Source of the DNA: Deltaproteobacteria bacterium
Lineage (GTDB): Bacteria > Bdellovibrionota > FAC87 > UBA2466
Direction: 5' to 3'
NCBI GenBank assembly: GCA_900299195.1
Contig: OMIX01000090.1
Coordinates: 1 to 34,261, forward strand
DNA length: 34,261 nucleotides
Positions within the stretch are counted from its first letter, which is position 1, and every line of letters starts with the position of its first letter. The position numbers were made by a program, and so were the translations under genes. Below the pieces are notes generated by a model that searched no databases, had not been told where the DNA came from, and worked only from the letters and a program-made list of their open reading frames with translations. This document shows, piece by piece, positions 6,843 to 30,330 of the stretch.

Positions 6843-7348
6843 AGTTTTTCCTTTAGAGCTTTTTCAACGTGGGGAGGTACCAACGTCGAAATATCTCCTC
6901 CATGGGAGATGACCTCTTTGACTAAAGTTGAATTCACGAAAAAGTTGTTTTCAGAAGCCATTAAGAAGAAAGTTTCAAGTCCTGGATGTAAACGCTTATT
7001 CATCGTGGCCATTTGAAATTCATATTCAAAATCAGAAATAGCTCTCAGCCCACGCAAAATCACATTAACCTTCATTTTTTTTGCATAGTCGGCCAAAAGT
7101 CCTTCGACCTTTTCCACTTTAATTCGAGGGTCTTTTTTAAAACACCCTTGAATGAGATCTTTTCTTTCTTCTTGGGTAAAAATGGGGTTCTTACTTGAGT
7201 GCGCGATAAGAATAATCACTTCATCAAATATCGATAAAGCGCGTGTGATAAGGTCCACATGGCCGTTGGTGATAGGATCAAAAGTGCCAGGGTAAATAGC
7301 TCGGTGAGCTTTCGAAGGAGAACTCGTATCTTTAAGGGTTTTCTTCAT
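6836..7348 (-). CDS. coaD: Pantetheine-phosphate adenylyltransferase
   Basis: This enzyme of 170 residues carries out the fourth step of coenzyme A synthesis: 4'-phosphopantetheine plus ATP gives dephospho-CoA plus pyrophosphate. The nucleotidyltransferase signature is present as YPGTFDPITNGH (19-30, with the TxGH-type motif). The family blocks ISDFEYEFQMATMN (104-117) and NSTLVKE (139-145) follow. The ATG at 7348 was chosen because the catalytic core begins about 17 residues later. An upstream in-frame ATG at 7378 would add an unconserved extension. It overlaps the end of rsmD by 17 bases, and the rsmD-coaD pairing is common across bacteria, which supports both calls. Confidence 0.95.
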   Translation of the reverse strand: MKKTLKDTSSPSKAHRAIYPGTFDPITNGHVDLITRALSIFDEVIILIAHSSKNPIFTQEERKDLIQGCFKKDPRIKVEKVEGLLADYAKKMKVNVILRGLRAISDFEYEFQMATMNKRLHPGLETFFLMASENNFFVNSTLVKEVISHGGDISTLVPPHVEKALKEKLC

Positions 7349-24870: not shown

Positions 24871-27800
24871 TCATGACGATCGGAGTGAAGCCATTTGGCC
24901 TACTTCAGAGCGAGAGGTGGGTAAAAGCGGATAAGCGCTATCCACAATCACATGAGTTACTTTGGTTCCTCGGGCTTTTTGAAGAGTTCCTTCGACCATT
25001 AGAAAAGAGCTCTTAAACAAAAGCTCTTTGTGTTGCTGATAGGTCGCATTCCAAACGACAAGATTTATAAAACCATATTCATCCTCTAGCGTAATAAAAA
25101 GAACTCCATTAGCTGTTGGGGGCATTTGCCTTGAAACAACTAGCCCTGCCACAAGTACTTTGCATCCATGGGACTTTTTAGCAATTTCTTTGGAATTTAC
25201 TAATTTCTTAAAGTTAAATTCCTTGCGTAAAAATTTCATCGGATGGCAAAAAAGTGAGACTCCAAAAGCATCATAATCTAAGGCGATGGTTTCCCAGGAC
25301 TCTTCCAGAGGAAGAAGTGTTTGGTCTTTTTCTGACCAAAGTAGAGGACTGTCCTGAATGTTTAATGATTGGATCTTCCAAAAAACTTCCCGACGACTTA
25401 AGCCTAGAGAGTTAAAGGCATCACTTGCAGCAAGATGAAAAAGCTCTCTTTTAGTCAGAACCGAAGGTTGTAATTTGTCTCTAAGAGACTCTAGAAAGAA
25501 TTCAAAGGTTGGAAAAGGTCTTTTTAGAGCTTCTATTGCCTTGCCTGTTTTTAGTTGTAAGGAGTGGATTTGTCGAAATCCCAATCTCATTTCTTTGGGG
25601 CGTTCAAGATGATTGTCATATCTACTGAAGTTGATATCGATAGGCAAAATAGTCACCCCATGTCTTTGGGCGTCATGAATCAGCGTATGACTTTGATAAA
25701 AGCCCATAGGTTGTGAGTTGAGTAGGGCTGTTAAATAAACGTCAGGGTAGTAGTATTTTAAATAAGCTGTAGCGTAGGCGAGAAGTGCAAAAGAGGCTGC
25801 ATGAGATTCTGGAAACCCATACTCTGCAAAACCTTCAATTTGTTTAAAAACTTGAGCCGCATATTCTTTGGAGAGGCCATTAGCTATGAGCCCTTGTTGA
25901 AATTTCTGCGCAATCTCTGAAAGGGTCTTTCGATCTCTTCTCCATGTTCCCATGGCACGTCTTAAAGTGTCGGCCTCTCCACCAGTAAATCCAGCAACCT
26001 CCATAGCCATTTTCATGATCTGCTCTTGAAAAATAGGAACCCCATACGTTTTTTTAAGAATCGGTTCTAACTTAGGGTGAGGGTACTCAATTGTTTCTAA
26101 GCCTTGCCTGCGTTTTAAATAAGGATGAACCATTTCTCCTTGGATGGGGCCCGGTCTGACAATCGAGATCTCAACAACAAGGTCAAAGAAATTTCTGGGC
26201 TTAAGTCTTGGCAGCATGTTCATTTGGGCTCGTGATTCAATTTGAAAAACTCCTAGAGTGTCTCCTTGTGAGATGGCTTGGTAAACTTTAGGATCTTCAG
26301 AAGGCAAAGTGGCTAGAGTCATCTCTTTGCCATAGGTAGATTTTAAATAATGAAAAGATTTTCTTAGGCAAGTTAGTATGCCTAATCCTAATATATCTAC
26401 GCGGGTAAAACCTAAAGCATCAAGGTCATTTTTGTCCCATTGAACTACCGTCCGATCTTCCATGGCAGCAGACTCAATAGGGATGCTTCTTGTGAGTTTG
26501 TCTTGAGAGAGAACAAACCCGCCCACGTGTGTTCCTAAGTGCCTTGGGAAAGTGAGAATAGAGGCTGTGATTGAAAGAAATTGCTTTAAAAGTCTTTGGG
26601 GGATGTCAGGAGCGACCGCTTCCCATTCTTCAAAAGGGATTTCGTTGATATTTCGTTTGTGGCTTAAGGCTAAGAGGCGATCAGTAGTGTGATTAGGGAA
26701 GTCAAAAACTTTCGCTACTTCTCTTAAGCTTGATTTTCTTCTAAAACAAATATGTGTTGCGGTGAGAGCCGCTCTGTCTCTCCCATAACGCTGATAAATA
26801 TATTGAATCACCTCTTCTCTGCGCTCGTGCTCGAAGTCGATGTCAATATCCGGAGGCTCTTTTCTCTCTCTAGAAATAAATCTCTCAAAAAGAAGATTCA
26901 TGCGCACAGGATCAATAGCTGTTATTTCTAAAACATAACACACGATAGAATTGGCTGCAGATCCACGACCTTGATAGAGAATGTCTTTTGATTTAGCAAA
27001 TTGAACGATATCCCAAATGGTGAGAAAGTAATCACTGTAGGATAGTTCTCGAATTAGGGAAAGCTCATGTTGGATTTGTTTTTGAACGGTTTCCGGAACG
27101 CCTTTGGGGTATCTTTTTTTAGCTCCCTCTAAAGTTAAGTGTCTTAAATAAGAATCCCCTGTCTCTCCTTTAGGAAGCCATTCAGTCGGGTAACGGTAGT
27201 GAAGTTCATTGAGAGAAAAATGACACCTCTCGGCTACTTCTAAGGTTCGAGTCATCCATTCAGGGGTGTGAGTGAAAAGTTTTGTCAGTTCCTCGATAGA
27301 TTTTAAATGGCGTTCAAGATTGGGAAGCAGTTTGAATCCTGCGGTCTTTAATGTGCAGGTGTGTCGAATACAAGTTAAGACATCTTGGAGCGGTTTTTTA
27401 TGGGGATGATGAAAAAGAGGGCGATTGCTCGCTACTACAGGAAGCTGAAGCCGTTTTGAAGCTTCTTTAGCCCAGAGGAGAGTTTCTTTTCCATCATGAA
27501 AGTGGCTTGCTAAAAGATAAAGAGAACCTTGGAAACGTTCTTTAAGCTGGGCAAGCAAAGAGGGGGTTTCTGTGATGACGGGAAATAGCAAAATAAGATC
27601 TGAAAAGAGAACGGAGTAGAGGTCGGGAGTTTTTTGTTGGTGAATCAGGGTTAAGAGTTCACACAAATTCCCATACCCGTTTCTGTTTTGACAGAGCAGA
27701 ACTAACGGCGAGTTGGAAAGGGTAATTTCAGCCCCTACCATAAAATTAAATTGGTGTTTTTGGGCCGCTAAATGCGCTCGGGCGGCACCATAGACGCCGT

Positions 27801-27951
27801 TGATATCGGTGATGGCTAATCCACGATAACCTAAAGAAGAAGCTTGCTCAATTAACTCTTCAGGATGAGAAGCCCCTTCAAGAAATGAATAGTTGCTTTT
27901 TGCATTCAGTTCGCAAAAAGATATTTTTTTAGTCGAACGTTCCGTGAGCAT
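24871..27951 (-). CDS. dnaE2: Error-prone DNA polymerase III alpha subunit DnaE2 (ImuC)
   Basis: This C-family polymerase of 1026 residues (usual for DnaE2) performs damage-induced translesion synthesis with ImuA and ImuB. An N-terminal PHP domain is followed by palm and fingers, with catalytic aspartates in PDIDIDFE (D368/D370/D372) and a later RVDILGL. HhH and OB-fold regions end the protein. In the PHP domain the first metal-ligand segment reads ELNAKSNYSFL, so the usual histidine is Asn and nuclease activity is unlikely. The ATG at 27951 is preferred to the upstream in-frame TTG at 27969. It overlaps the end of imuB by 23 bases, so translation is probably coupled. Confidence 0.95.
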   Translation of the reverse strand: MLTERSTKKISFCELNAKSNYSFLEGASHPEELIEQASSLGYRGLAITDINGVYGAARAHLAAQKHQFNFMVGAEITLSNSPLVLLCQNRNGYGNLCELLTLIHQQKTPDLYSVLFSDLILLFPVITETPSLLAQLKERFQGSLYLLASHFHDGKETLLWAKEASKRLQLPVVASNRPLFHHPHKKPLQDVLTCIRHTCTLKTAGFKLLPNLERHLKSIEELTKLFTHTPEWMTRTLEVAERCHFSLNELHYRYPTEWLPKGETGDSYLRHLTLEGAKKRYPKGVPETVQKQIQHELSLIRELSYSDYFLTIWDIVQFAKSKDILYQGRGSAANSIVCYVLEITAIDPVRMNLLFERFISRERKEPPDIDIDFEHERREEVIQYIYQRYGRDRAALTATHICFRRKSSLREVAKVFDFPNHTTDRLLALSHKRNINEIPFEEWEAVAPDIPQRLLKQFLSITASILTFPRHLGTHVGGFVLSQDKLTRSIPIESAAMEDRTVVQWDKNDLDALGFTRVDILGLGILTCLRKSFHYLKSTYGKEMTLATLPSEDPKVYQAISQGDTLGVFQIESRAQMNMLPRLKPRNFFDLVVEISIVRPGPIQGEMVHPYLKRRQGLETIEYPHPKLEPILKKTYGVPIFQEQIMKMAMEVAGFTGGEADTLRRAMGTWRRDRKTLSEIAQKFQQGLIANGLSKEYAAQVFKQIEGFAEYGFPESHAASFALLAYATAYLKYYYPDVYLTALLNSQPMGFYQSHTLIHDAQRHGVTILPIDINFSRYDNHLERPKEMRLGFRQIHSLQLKTGKAIEALKRPFPTFEFFLESLRDKLQPSVLTKRELFHLAASDAFNSLGLSRREVFWKIQSLNIQDSPLLWSEKDQTLLPLEESWETIALDYDAFGVSLFCHPMKFLRKEFNFKKLVNSKEIAKKSHGCKVLVAGLVVSRQMPPTANGVLFITLEDEYGFINLVVWNATYQQHKELLFKSSFLMVEGTLQKARGTKVTHVIVDSAYPLLPTSRSEVGQMASLRSS

Positions 27952-29155
27952 ACCAAGTTTTTTCTTCAAGATCCCAATAAAGCCATAATCGGCTTCCTTT
28001 GGGGGGAATAGCTATGAAATATCTCCGAACTCCATGAGAACTCCACCATTCTGTCATTAGATTTTCCGATGGAATCAGTTTCCAAGAAGGTAAAGGATGG
28101 CAAGGTTTGGGTGGGGCAAAAATAAAAAGTGGGCGATGGGAGGTAGCGTGAGTTTGAGATTTTGTTGAGGGGGGCCAACTAGGTGCCCAAGATTTTTCCG
28201 GAAGATAACTTTCTTGGAGAATGGGAAACCCTACTTGAGTATCTCCAAATTTATTTCTAAGACGAGTTAAATATTGAGACAAATCTGAAAAAACACTTTC
28301 TCCGGTGTCGAAAAGAGAAAGTTGCCCAGCAACATAAGGAACAGTTTCTTTAATCGTGATATCTAACGATTGCAGAGGAGAATCCCAAGAGAGATCTTTT
28401 AAGAACTCTTTTAATAGTTGTAAAAGAGTTTCACTGCTTTGAGTGGGATCAGAAAGATGAAAAAGTTTTTGTATTTTATTTCGAGACTCTAAATGAAACA
28501 TGAGTTCTATGCTTTTCGCCATTTGAGCTCTGCCTTTAAGACGAGACTCTAATTTATGAAATATTGGGGGAAGGCCATAAAATAAGGCTTCAAGAGAGGT
28601 GAGTTCTTCTGTGTTGAGACTTTCTTGAATTAAGCCTTCGGGGACAAAAGTAGGAAGAATTAATTCTTTGTTTCCCAATATCCAATCTAAAAGGGAAACC
28701 CCCATTTTCCCAAAACGTCTTCCAATCGCTGTGGCGCTTAATTGGGTGAAATCGGCAATCGTTTTTAATCCCACTCTTTTCATGAATCGAACTAATTCGT
28801 TTCGTTCCTTTTTTTCGTTCTCGATTTGATTAGGATCTCCAAGCACTTCTAAACGAGAAATATCAAGTTTTAAAAGAACGGTGCTGCTTTTCCCTGGAGG
28901 GATAAAAACCTCCTGGTGGTTTGAGAAAGCTTTGGCCCACTCAGGTCTGTCGGTTAAGACAAAGGGGCTGCTCACCCCAAAATGGCTGCATAACTGACCA
29001 GCTTTAAGAAGAATATTTTCCTCTCCTTTAAAGTATTTCAAAGTGGGCTCGATATCTAAATAGAGCCCCCCCTTCACTAGAGACACTTTAGGGGTAAGTG
29101 AAAGTGCACTTTCCGTAAATGCGGGATTAGATTCTGCGAAAAATAGGATTCTCAT
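27929..29155 (-). CDS. imuB: ImuB, Y-family polymerase-like mutagenesis adaptor (N-terminally short)
   Basis: ImuB is a catalytically inactive Y-family relative that brings DnaE2 to the sliding clamp. This copy has 408 residues, about 100 fewer than the usual ~500. It starts almost directly at TPKVSLVKGGLYLDIEPT (21-38), which in typical ImuB lies far into the palm, so the first part of the palm/fingers is absent. HhH-like (MKRVGLKTIADF, 125-136) and little-finger-like regions follow. The clamp-binding motif QLSLFD is at 278-283. No ATG or frame upstream can supply the missing part: imuA ends only 25 bases before. It overlaps dnaE2 by 23 bases. Confidence 0.88.
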   Translation of the reverse strand: MRILFFAESNPAFTESALSLTPKVSLVKGGLYLDIEPTLKYFKGEENILLKAGQLCSHFGVSSPFVLTDRPEWAKAFSNHQEVFIPPGKSSTVLLKLDISRLEVLGDPNQIENEKKERNELVRFMKRVGLKTIADFTQLSATAIGRRFGKMGVSLLDWILGNKELILPTFVPEGLIQESLNTEELTSLEALFYGLPPIFHKLESRLKGRAQMAKSIELMFHLESRNKIQKLFHLSDPTQSSETLLQLLKEFLKDLSWDSPLQSLDITIKETVPYVAGQLSLFDTGESVFSDLSQYLTRLRNKFGDTQVGFPILQESYLPEKSWAPSWPPSTKSQTHATSHRPLFIFAPPKPCHPLPSWKLIPSENLMTEWWSSHGVRRYFIAIPPKGSRLWLYWDLEEKTWYAHGTFD

Positions 29156-29180: not shown

Positions 29181-29675
29181 CTACTCAGGTTGTAAAAAAC
29201 GAAGAGTCCCTTTTCTTTTGAACATCCAATGGGGAAGTTTGTGATCGCTTAACACAAAAACTTTTATCTTTTTTCTTTCAGACCAAAGTTGCAGTTTTCT
29301 TAAAACCACTGTGGAACAAGGTTTGGAGGGGCGTAAAAACACAAATGAAAAGAGTCCAGTTTGGATAGCTTCAAGACCCGTTCTCCAAACCTGTTCTGAG
29401 GTTTCAGTTTTTACTGAGAGAACCCGAGAGAGGGGGACTCCTAAAGCATTCAAGGATGGGGGATAAATCGTTCCTTCGTCAGAAATAAAGATAAAGTAAG
29501 TAAGAGAGTTTTCTAAATTTGAGGGGGCGGGAGGATCCGCTTTCAGGGAAACTGATAAGCATTCAAACGCCAGATGCGTTTTGGATCCCCCCGGAAGGGC
29601 TGTCACTTGGGCTAAGCCATAAAAACTGTTTAGGGCCTCAGAATTAATGAATGGACTAGACAAAACAGCTCTCAT
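29181..29675 (-). CDS. imuA: ImuA, RecA-like mutagenesis accessory protein (short)
   Basis: This protein of 164 residues is shorter than typical ImuA (about 200-270). A degenerate Walker A-like turn, ALPGGSKTHLAF, precedes the ImuA-type stretch IYPPSLNALGVPLSRVLSV and then VWRTGLEAIQTGLFSFVF, which matches the order in known ImuA proteins. ImuA is thought to modulate RecA and support ImuB. The ATG at 29675 was chosen over one at 29729 because 29729 lies inside lexA and would read through the operator. The chosen ATG lies 3 bases from the 24-bp palindrome, and there is no Shine-Dalgarno. It is the first gene of the imuA-imuB-dnaE2 operon, divergent from lexA. Confidence 0.82.
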   Translation of the reverse strand: MRAVLSSPFINSEALNSFYGLAQVTALPGGSKTHLAFECLSVSLKADPPAPSNLENSLTYFIFISDEGTIYPPSLNALGVPLSRVLSVKTETSEQVWRTGLEAIQTGLFSFVFLRPSKPCSTVVLRKLQLWSERKKIKVFVLSDHKLPHWMFKRKGTLRFLQPE

Positions 29676-29678
29676 AGG

Positions 29679-29702
29679 TATACCATACAATTGTATGGTA
29701 TA
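29679..29702. promoter_or_regulatory. Shared LexA operator candidate between imuA and lexA (perfect 24-bp palindrome)
   Basis: The half-site TATACCATACAA (29679-29690) is followed without a spacer by its exact reverse complement. The palindrome starts 3 bases upstream of the imuA ATG and contains the lexA ATG (29695-29697). A nested palindrome GGTATACC lies at 29677-29684, and GGTATA recurs 20 bases later, about two helical turns. On the plus strand TAGACA (29657-29662), 16 bases, TATACC (29679-29684) is a possible promoter for lexA. On the minus strand TTGTTG (29719-29724), 16 bases, TATACC is the weaker mirror. It differs from the E. coli CTGT-N8-ACAG box. Binding by LexA is inferred from position and symmetry. 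Confidence 0.78.
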
Positions 29703-30330
29703 TAGATCAACCAAAAAACAACAACTCACAGAGTCTCAATCTTCGGTACTAGAGTTCATAAAAAGTTTTATTCGAAGCCAAGGGCTGGCCCCATCTTATC
29801 GTGAGATCCAATCTCACTTTGGATATAAAGGTGTGGGAACTGTTCAAGACCATCTTCGGGCTTTAATCGAAAAGGGGTATTTAGAAAAAAGTGAACTTAA
29901 CACTAAAAAACGAGCCGCCCGAGGGTTAATGCCTAGAGGGATGAGTTTAGCAGGGGTTCGAAAAATTCCGGTGTATGGTGAAATTGCAGCGGGAGGACCC
30001 AGGGGGGCGGAGCAGTTAGAACTTGGGGAAGTGGTTATCAGTGAGGAGTTGGTTCGCGGAGAATGTTTTGCTCTTAGAGTTGTGGGTGACAGTATGATCG
30101 ATGTGGGAATTTATGAAGGAGACCATGTGATTGTGGAACAGAAATCGCAAATCAAAGAAGGGGATATTGTCGTGGCTCTTTTAGATGGCGAAACGACCCT
30201 AAAAAAATATTCGGTAAAACAGGGAGAGGTTTTTCTTGTCCCCGAAAATCGAATGATGAAACCTATCTCTACCCGAGGCAAAAAACTCGAAATTCAGGGC
30301 CGAGTGGTAAGTCTGCAAAGAAAGCTCTAA
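29695..30330 (+). CDS. lexA: SOS repressor LexA
   Basis: This protein of 211 residues has an N-terminal winged helix-turn-helix (LTESQSSVLEFI through GVGTVQDHLRALIEKGYLE, about 11-64). The self-cleavage site is A99-G100 in GEIAAGGP. The peptidase dyad is S133 (GDSM) and K170 (TTLKK), in the S24 fold. RecA-stimulated autocleavage would derepress the SOS genes. The start at 29695 is the only ATG that puts LT-x-x-Q in its usual position near the N-terminus. An ATG at 29647 would add 16 unconserved residues and lie inside imuA. No Shine-Dalgarno exists, and the start codon lies inside the operator, so a very short or absent leader is implied. It ends 23 bases from the convergent maeB stop. Confidence 0.93.
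   Translation: MVYRSTKKQQLTESQSSVLEFIKSFIRSQGLAPSYREIQSHFGYKGVGTVQDHLRALIEKGYLEKSELNTKKRAARGLMPRGMSLAGVRKIPVYGEIAAGGPRGAEQLELGEVVISEELVRGECFALRVVGDSMIDVGIYEGDHVIVEQKSQIKEGDIVVALLDGETTLKKYSVKQGEVFLVPENRMMKPISTRGKKLEIQGRVVSLQRKL

Follow-up and report, generated by a model that had tools for sequence, protein, structure and literature searches.

LexA repressors as a family control their own genes as a rule, and their binding motifs vary between clades and widely between phyla. The canonical SOS genes of Bdellovibrio bacteriovorus are reportedly outside LexA control, to judge by the title of the Campoy study of 2005. Several systems come close to the locus considered here. The LexA box is TTAC-N3-GTAA in B. 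bacteriovorus (PMC8565304, PMC3323433, citing Campoy 2005) and GAAC-N4-GTTC in Gram-positive bacteria (PMC3323433). In Pseudomonas putida, lexA2-imuABC is a cassette of the lexA-imuA-imuB-dnaE2 (imuC) type transcribed as one operon (PMC3901139). The lexA gene of Mycobacterium tuberculosis is leaderless, with translation beginning at the transcription start (PMC2897130), and the acuR operon of Rhodobacter sphaeroides combines an autoregulated repressor with an mRNA that has no leader and with an inverted repeat that overlaps the promoter as its operator (PMC3017554).

The window, the whole stretch of 34,261 nucleotides analysed here, comes from Deltaproteobacteria bacterium (Bdellovibrionota; FAC87; UBA2466; assembly GCA_900299195.1, contig OMIX01000090.1, positions 1 to 34,261, forward strand). 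In it imuA-imuB-dnaE2 diverge from lexA, and a palindrome lies where the two transcription units meet:

29679..29702, no strand: putative LexA operator, a perfect 24-bp palindrome, TATACCATACAA/TTGTATGGTATA (repeat search, simulation, conservation in relatives)
29682..29699, no strand: conserved operator core ACCATACANNTGTATGGT (highest information content in the position weight matrix, PWM; 24 lexA loci with at most 2 mismatches)
29695..30330, + strand: lexA, LexA repressor, 211 aa (domain and family profile matches, alignment)
29181..29675, - strand: imuA, 164 aa (weak NCBIfam ImuA match, position, homology to ImuA of relatives)
27929..29155, - strand: imuB, Y-family polymerase-like, 408 aa (profile matches)
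24871..27969, - strand: dnaE2, error-prone DNA polymerase (NF004225 at 1214 bits, cut-off 939)

The LexA protein contains both the LexA-type helix-turn-helix (PF01726) and the S24 peptidase domain (PF00717), matches TIGR00498 at 168 bits (cut-off 111), and keeps an intact Ala-Gly cleavage site and Ser-Lys dyad, its IAAGGP, GDSM and TLKKY segments aligning with the E. coli sites. ImuB is matched by the Pfam model IMS_C just above its cut-off. The ImuA model was matched at 28 bits, far below its cut-off of 150, and the gene order agrees with an ImuA-ImuB-DnaE2 mutasome.

The arms of the palindrome, TATACCATACAA (29679-29690) and TTGTATGGTATA (29691-29702), abut without a gap and form the only inverted repeat of the window with 12-nt arms, 100% complementarity and zero gap; the longest perfect arms measured 6-10 nt when the window was simulated 60 times under a first-order Markov model. 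In the whole 2.83-Mb genome this palindrome is the one place with the pattern CCATAC-N4-GTATGG. An earlier note, made from the letters of this DNA, had drawn attention to the repeat and had located the ATG of lexA (29695) within it and that of imuA (29675) three bases beyond, with the start codons 19 bases apart. Sequence check and repeat search agree on the palindrome, the coordinates bear out both positions, and 19 bases indeed separate the A's of the two ATGs. Start codons and predicted promoter elements are interleaved with the arms as follows:

29695..29697, + strand: lexA start codon, in the right arm (no other start codon before the helix-turn-helix; in frame at 18 of 24 loci)
29657..29662, + strand: predicted lexA -35, TAGACA, replaced by TGGACA in the majority of the family's other genera (promoter scan; conserved in relatives)
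29681..29686, + strand: predicted lexA -10, TACCAT, within the left arm (promoter scan)
29705..29710, - strand: predicted imuA -35, TTGATC, TTGACT in genus g6 (sequence geometry, relatives)
29682..29687, - strand: predicted imuA -10, TATGGT, with a 17-nt spacer to the -35 (sequence geometry)
29672..29686, - strand: mirror-image ATG in the left arm, opening a four-codon ORF, MVYL*, whose TGA overlaps the imuA ATG as ATGA (four of four genus members with the locus)

TAGACA-18-TACCAT was the only promoter-like match of the region in a consensus scan, in which shuffled sequences averaged 0.6. It places the predicted lexA transcript start at about 29693, 0-2 nt upstream of the ATG, so that the lexA mRNA is predicted to be leaderless or nearly so. 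The -35 is kept as TAGACA or TGGACA across the family of the window, and over 25 genomes the -35-like signal is strongest at 19-20 nt before the core. On the opposite strand, TTGATC-17-TATGGT puts the predicted imuA transcript start on the A of the imuA ATG, and the start is thus predicted at or just beside that codon; this promoter, weaker by consensus than that of lexA, was not returned by the consensus scan. An in-frame ATG at 29647 was rejected as the lexA start, as the gene would then cross the promoter and the codon is not conserved in relatives. The absence of a Shine-Dalgarno sequence from both genes, also remarked earlier, holds (matches of at most 2 of 6 before lexA and 3 of 6 before imuA), but such matches are weak (1-4 of 6) for most window genes checked, which makes this weak evidence for, and no proof of, leaderless mRNAs. 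The four-codon ORFs of the genus read MVYL, MVSI or MVLR, with the TGA overlapping the imuA ATG in all four genomes, and may reflect translation coupling or be the remnant of a start that imuA used ancestrally.

The palindrome thus overlaps the predicted promoters on both strands, in keeping with the shared operator proposed in the earlier note, and it is conserved among lexA orthologues, as a LexA operator would be. It is very probably the operator of the neighbouring LexA, at which one bound dimer would silence both lexA and imuA-imuB-dnaE2 until DNA damage opens the switch. The dimer would cover the -10 region and start point of lexA and, on the opposite strand, those of imuA-imuB-dnaE2, and both genes would therefore be silenced together. 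Once damage had activated RecA, self-cleavage of LexA at the Ala-Gly bond would open the two promoters at the same time, and fresh LexA would shut the switch again. That LexA binds here, where exactly the mRNAs begin, that they are translated without a leader and that damage induces them are our inferences. That the repeat works at the RNA level, by folding into a hairpin that masks the start codon or terminates transcription, has a next to negligible probability: a perfect 12-bp inverted repeat could fold if it were wholly transcribed, but the predicted transcripts begin within it, so that neither mRNA would carry both arms. The arms are also AT-rich, with no loop and no T-run, a terminator search found none here, and symmetry without a spacer suits a site for a DNA-bound dimer.

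The site is retained well beyond the genus. The exact 14-base pattern CCATACANNTGTATGG has 26 copies in 369 genomes of the phylum against one for the reversed control; lexA accounts for 21 of these, a separate imuA in G043 has one, another precedes a dnaE2 operon in G019, and the remaining three lie elsewhere. Allowing up to 2 mismatches, ACCATACA-NN-TGTATGGT (ACCATACANNTGTATGGT) was found at the lexA locus of 24 genomes from families f1, f2, f7, f8 and f10, in relatives whose LexA identity ranges from 80% down to about 34%. The mutasome cassette adjoins the site in most of these 24 loci. Its divergent order is kept around the site in f1 and f2, and likewise in f10 and part of f8, where ImuA and ImuB are more diverged. 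The check proposed earlier, of whether relatives keep palindrome and gene order together, thus came out in favour of co-retention in several families; G009, a member of the clade with lexA beside imuA, has no such palindrome in the intervening gap. Several GTACA/TGTAC repeats occur there instead (L159, near 6850-6900), a possible motif shift. In G013 (L163) the operator is intact and lexA is split over two overlapping frames, owing to a frameshift or an assembly error.

The start codons travel with the site. At the 18 loci mentioned above, the right-arm ATG, part of TGTATGGT, is in frame with LexA and followed by no stop, which extends to relatives the earlier placement of the lexA start inside the palindrome; the linkers span 12-72 nt, with ten distinct lengths listed, one of which (36 nt) comes from G011, whose degenerate site is outside the 24 loci. 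Where lexA starts elsewhere, the mirror ATG of the left arm opens imuA in five of six loci (G014, G049, G346, G351 and G364), with ORFs of 177-217 codons. It opens ImuA in ten genomes altogether, and in five (G022, G029, G036, G347 and G361) lexA and imuA both begin within the palindrome. For G014, G347, G351, G361 and G364 the homology of these mirror ORFs to the ImuA of the window was direct; for the others it is drawn from their similarity to one another and their position. In both f7 genomes with an imuA-like gene before lexA (G019 and G040), it is this leading gene whose start codon is the ATG of a site. The sole exception, with neither gene starting in the site, is G007.

This pattern could be read as nothing more than a symmetric core promoter firing both ways, with a start signal pointing outward on each strand, conserved as such and not as a LexA site, since both arms contain a hexamer resembling a -10 (TACCAT or TATGGT) together with an outward ATG, and both genes start inside the palindrome in those five genomes. 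We regard this as quite improbable. The palindrome persists in G014, G049 and G351, where its ATG lies 68-104 nt before the LexA helix-turn-helix and lexA starts well downstream. It persists also in G007 as CGTACA-TA-TGTACG, with both arms changed symmetrically, both ATGs lost and the symmetry kept, which favours a dimeric protein site and is not predicted by start codons alone. Moreover, the CC/GG pairs and the C of CATAC, needed for neither the -10 nor the ATG, carry about 1.5-1.8 bits in the PWM, and among the lexA loci compared the palindrome is confined to one LexA clade.

That confinement emerged from a maximum-likelihood tree of 63 LexA proteins, in which all 24 rows with the palindrome fall within one clade of 27 (support 100/100) and none of the 36 proteins outside it has the palindrome. 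The recognition helix is mostly AVGTVQDH or AVGSAQDV in this clade and mostly SLGTVQNY in its sister clade. As the site follows one clade and the recognition helix differs, operator and repressor have changed together. Of the 36 loci outside the clade, 23 carry upstream of lexA the direct repeats TTACGC-N5-TTACGC (period 11, with 10 or more of the 12 letters matching), among them L257, L282, L299, L289, L298 and L283, with the variants TTACAC and TTACGG. Inverted and direct layouts of the LexA box thus occur within one phylum, and G361 has both LexA types, the palindrome type beside imuB-dnaE2 and a second of the sister clade (L287 and L268).

In the genome of the window, further sites (C95, C7, C37 and other contigs), sought by pattern search alone, score 7.6-12 bits, against 23-37 bits for all but one lexA site; they were rejected as operators because of these low scores and their location within genes or in a convergent gap. 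The recA loci of 15 genomes reach at most 3.2 bits on the same PWM scale. With up to 3 mismatches allowed, 22 genomes gave 89 matches against 74 for the controls, an excess no larger than the lexA sites themselves. The missing recA site and the lack of further sites point to essentially one operator per genome, a one-operator circuit. The search of this genome and its relatives suggested in the earlier note was thus rewarded at lexA, imuA and dnaE2, which hold 23 of the 26 exact sites, and drew a blank at recA. An operator at recA and other repair genes, as in a canonical SOS regulon, was not found in these searches. Sites at G007:C113, G127, G240 and G317 were rejected as regulon members, their neighbours being neither lexA nor mutasome genes. 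That of G317 (L307:6028-6051) is the identical 24-bp palindrome inside a longer one, before an HTH-nucleotidyltransferase/HEPN-like (MNT-HEPN-like) gene pair.

The G317 copy, before an unrelated gene pair in a genome whose own lexA has no palindrome, would be consistent with a different regulator that binds the site and controls lexA and imuA, and LexA binding is itself our inference. Such a regulator is nonetheless highly improbable: the motif tracks the LexA lineage and its recognition-helix changes, autoregulation is the rule for LexA, and nearly all exact sites lie at lexA or mutasome genes.

A LexA serving a single operator would also fit the one conspicuous loss. G003, of the same genus and 98% complete, keeps recA, and its lexA, imuB, dnaE2 and site were not found. 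Its maeB-like neighbour gene is present (L331) and the contig ends 178 bp away, so that loss of the cassette is likely, not certain. An assembly gap was rejected as the sole reason, since the 178 bp past the maeB-like gene hold no LexA end and ImuB and DnaE2 are absent too. The joint loss of lexA, imuB, dnaE2 and site is as expected if LexA serves this cassette only.

Computed directly are the site and its conservation, the conserved in-frame ATGs, the inheritance of the site together with a single LexA clade, the occurrence of one strong site in each genome, and the intact cleavage site and dyad. Building on these, we lean, with moderate confidence, towards a broader reading: a single 18-24 bp element would, in this branch of the Bdellovibrionota, be at once the LexA operator, the -10 boxes and the start codons for lexA and imuA, both genes would ancestrally have been leaderless from opposite ATGs, and LexA would have been reduced to a one-operator switch of mutagenic repair. 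With both ATGs in one palindrome, the recognition sequence of the repressor would be coupled to the start codon, which offers a tangible explanation of why a LexA motif may stay fixed. The circuit suggests an SOS response shrunk to one shared operator, with only the repressor and the mutagenic polymerase set under control, so that one could examine inducible mutagenesis separately from DNA repair in general. The locus also offers a testable case of leaderless mRNAs facing outward from a single palindrome.

The motif ACCATACA-NN-TGTATGGT matches none of CTGT-N8-ACAG, GAAC-N4-GTTC, GTTC-N7-GTTC, TTAC-N3-GTAA, GGTT-N10-AACC, CTAA-N5-TTAG and GGA-N5-TCC, the seven compared out of 17 published LexA motifs, and the literature search returned no match in the sources covered. 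Since LexA motifs vary between clades, this mismatch concerns the type of box and not its status as a LexA operator. The likeness to the B. bacteriovorus box noted earlier, in the same phylum, stands for the TAC/GTA half-site, but the spacing, the rest of the half-site and the LexA clade differ. The spacing instead matches that of the Gram-positive boxes, also dimer sites in the lexA promoter, with an identical AC-N4-GT (here ATAC-N4-GTAT), whereas here the half-site is CCATAC/GTATGG, the start codon lies inside and there is essentially one site per genome. As in P. putida, lexA adjoins its mutasome target genes, which here diverge from one shared operator with start codons inside it and do not form a single operon. 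Like the M. tuberculosis lexA, the gene is predicted to be leaderless, with a different motif; no start codon inside a palindromic operator was found for the former in the available part of PMC2897130. The acuR operon shares the autoregulated repressor, leaderless mRNA and inverted-repeat operator on the promoter, but belongs to the TetR family, runs in a single direction and has its operator upstream of the ATG. That LexA regulates itself and can control a mutasome is already known. What sets this locus apart, against the sources compared, are its motif, the start codons embedded in it and a regulon with essentially one operator, and on present sequence evidence the locus is best read as a new type of LexA operator, in which the site of the repressor would merge with the -10 box and the start codon to form a switch for mutagenesis with a single operator.
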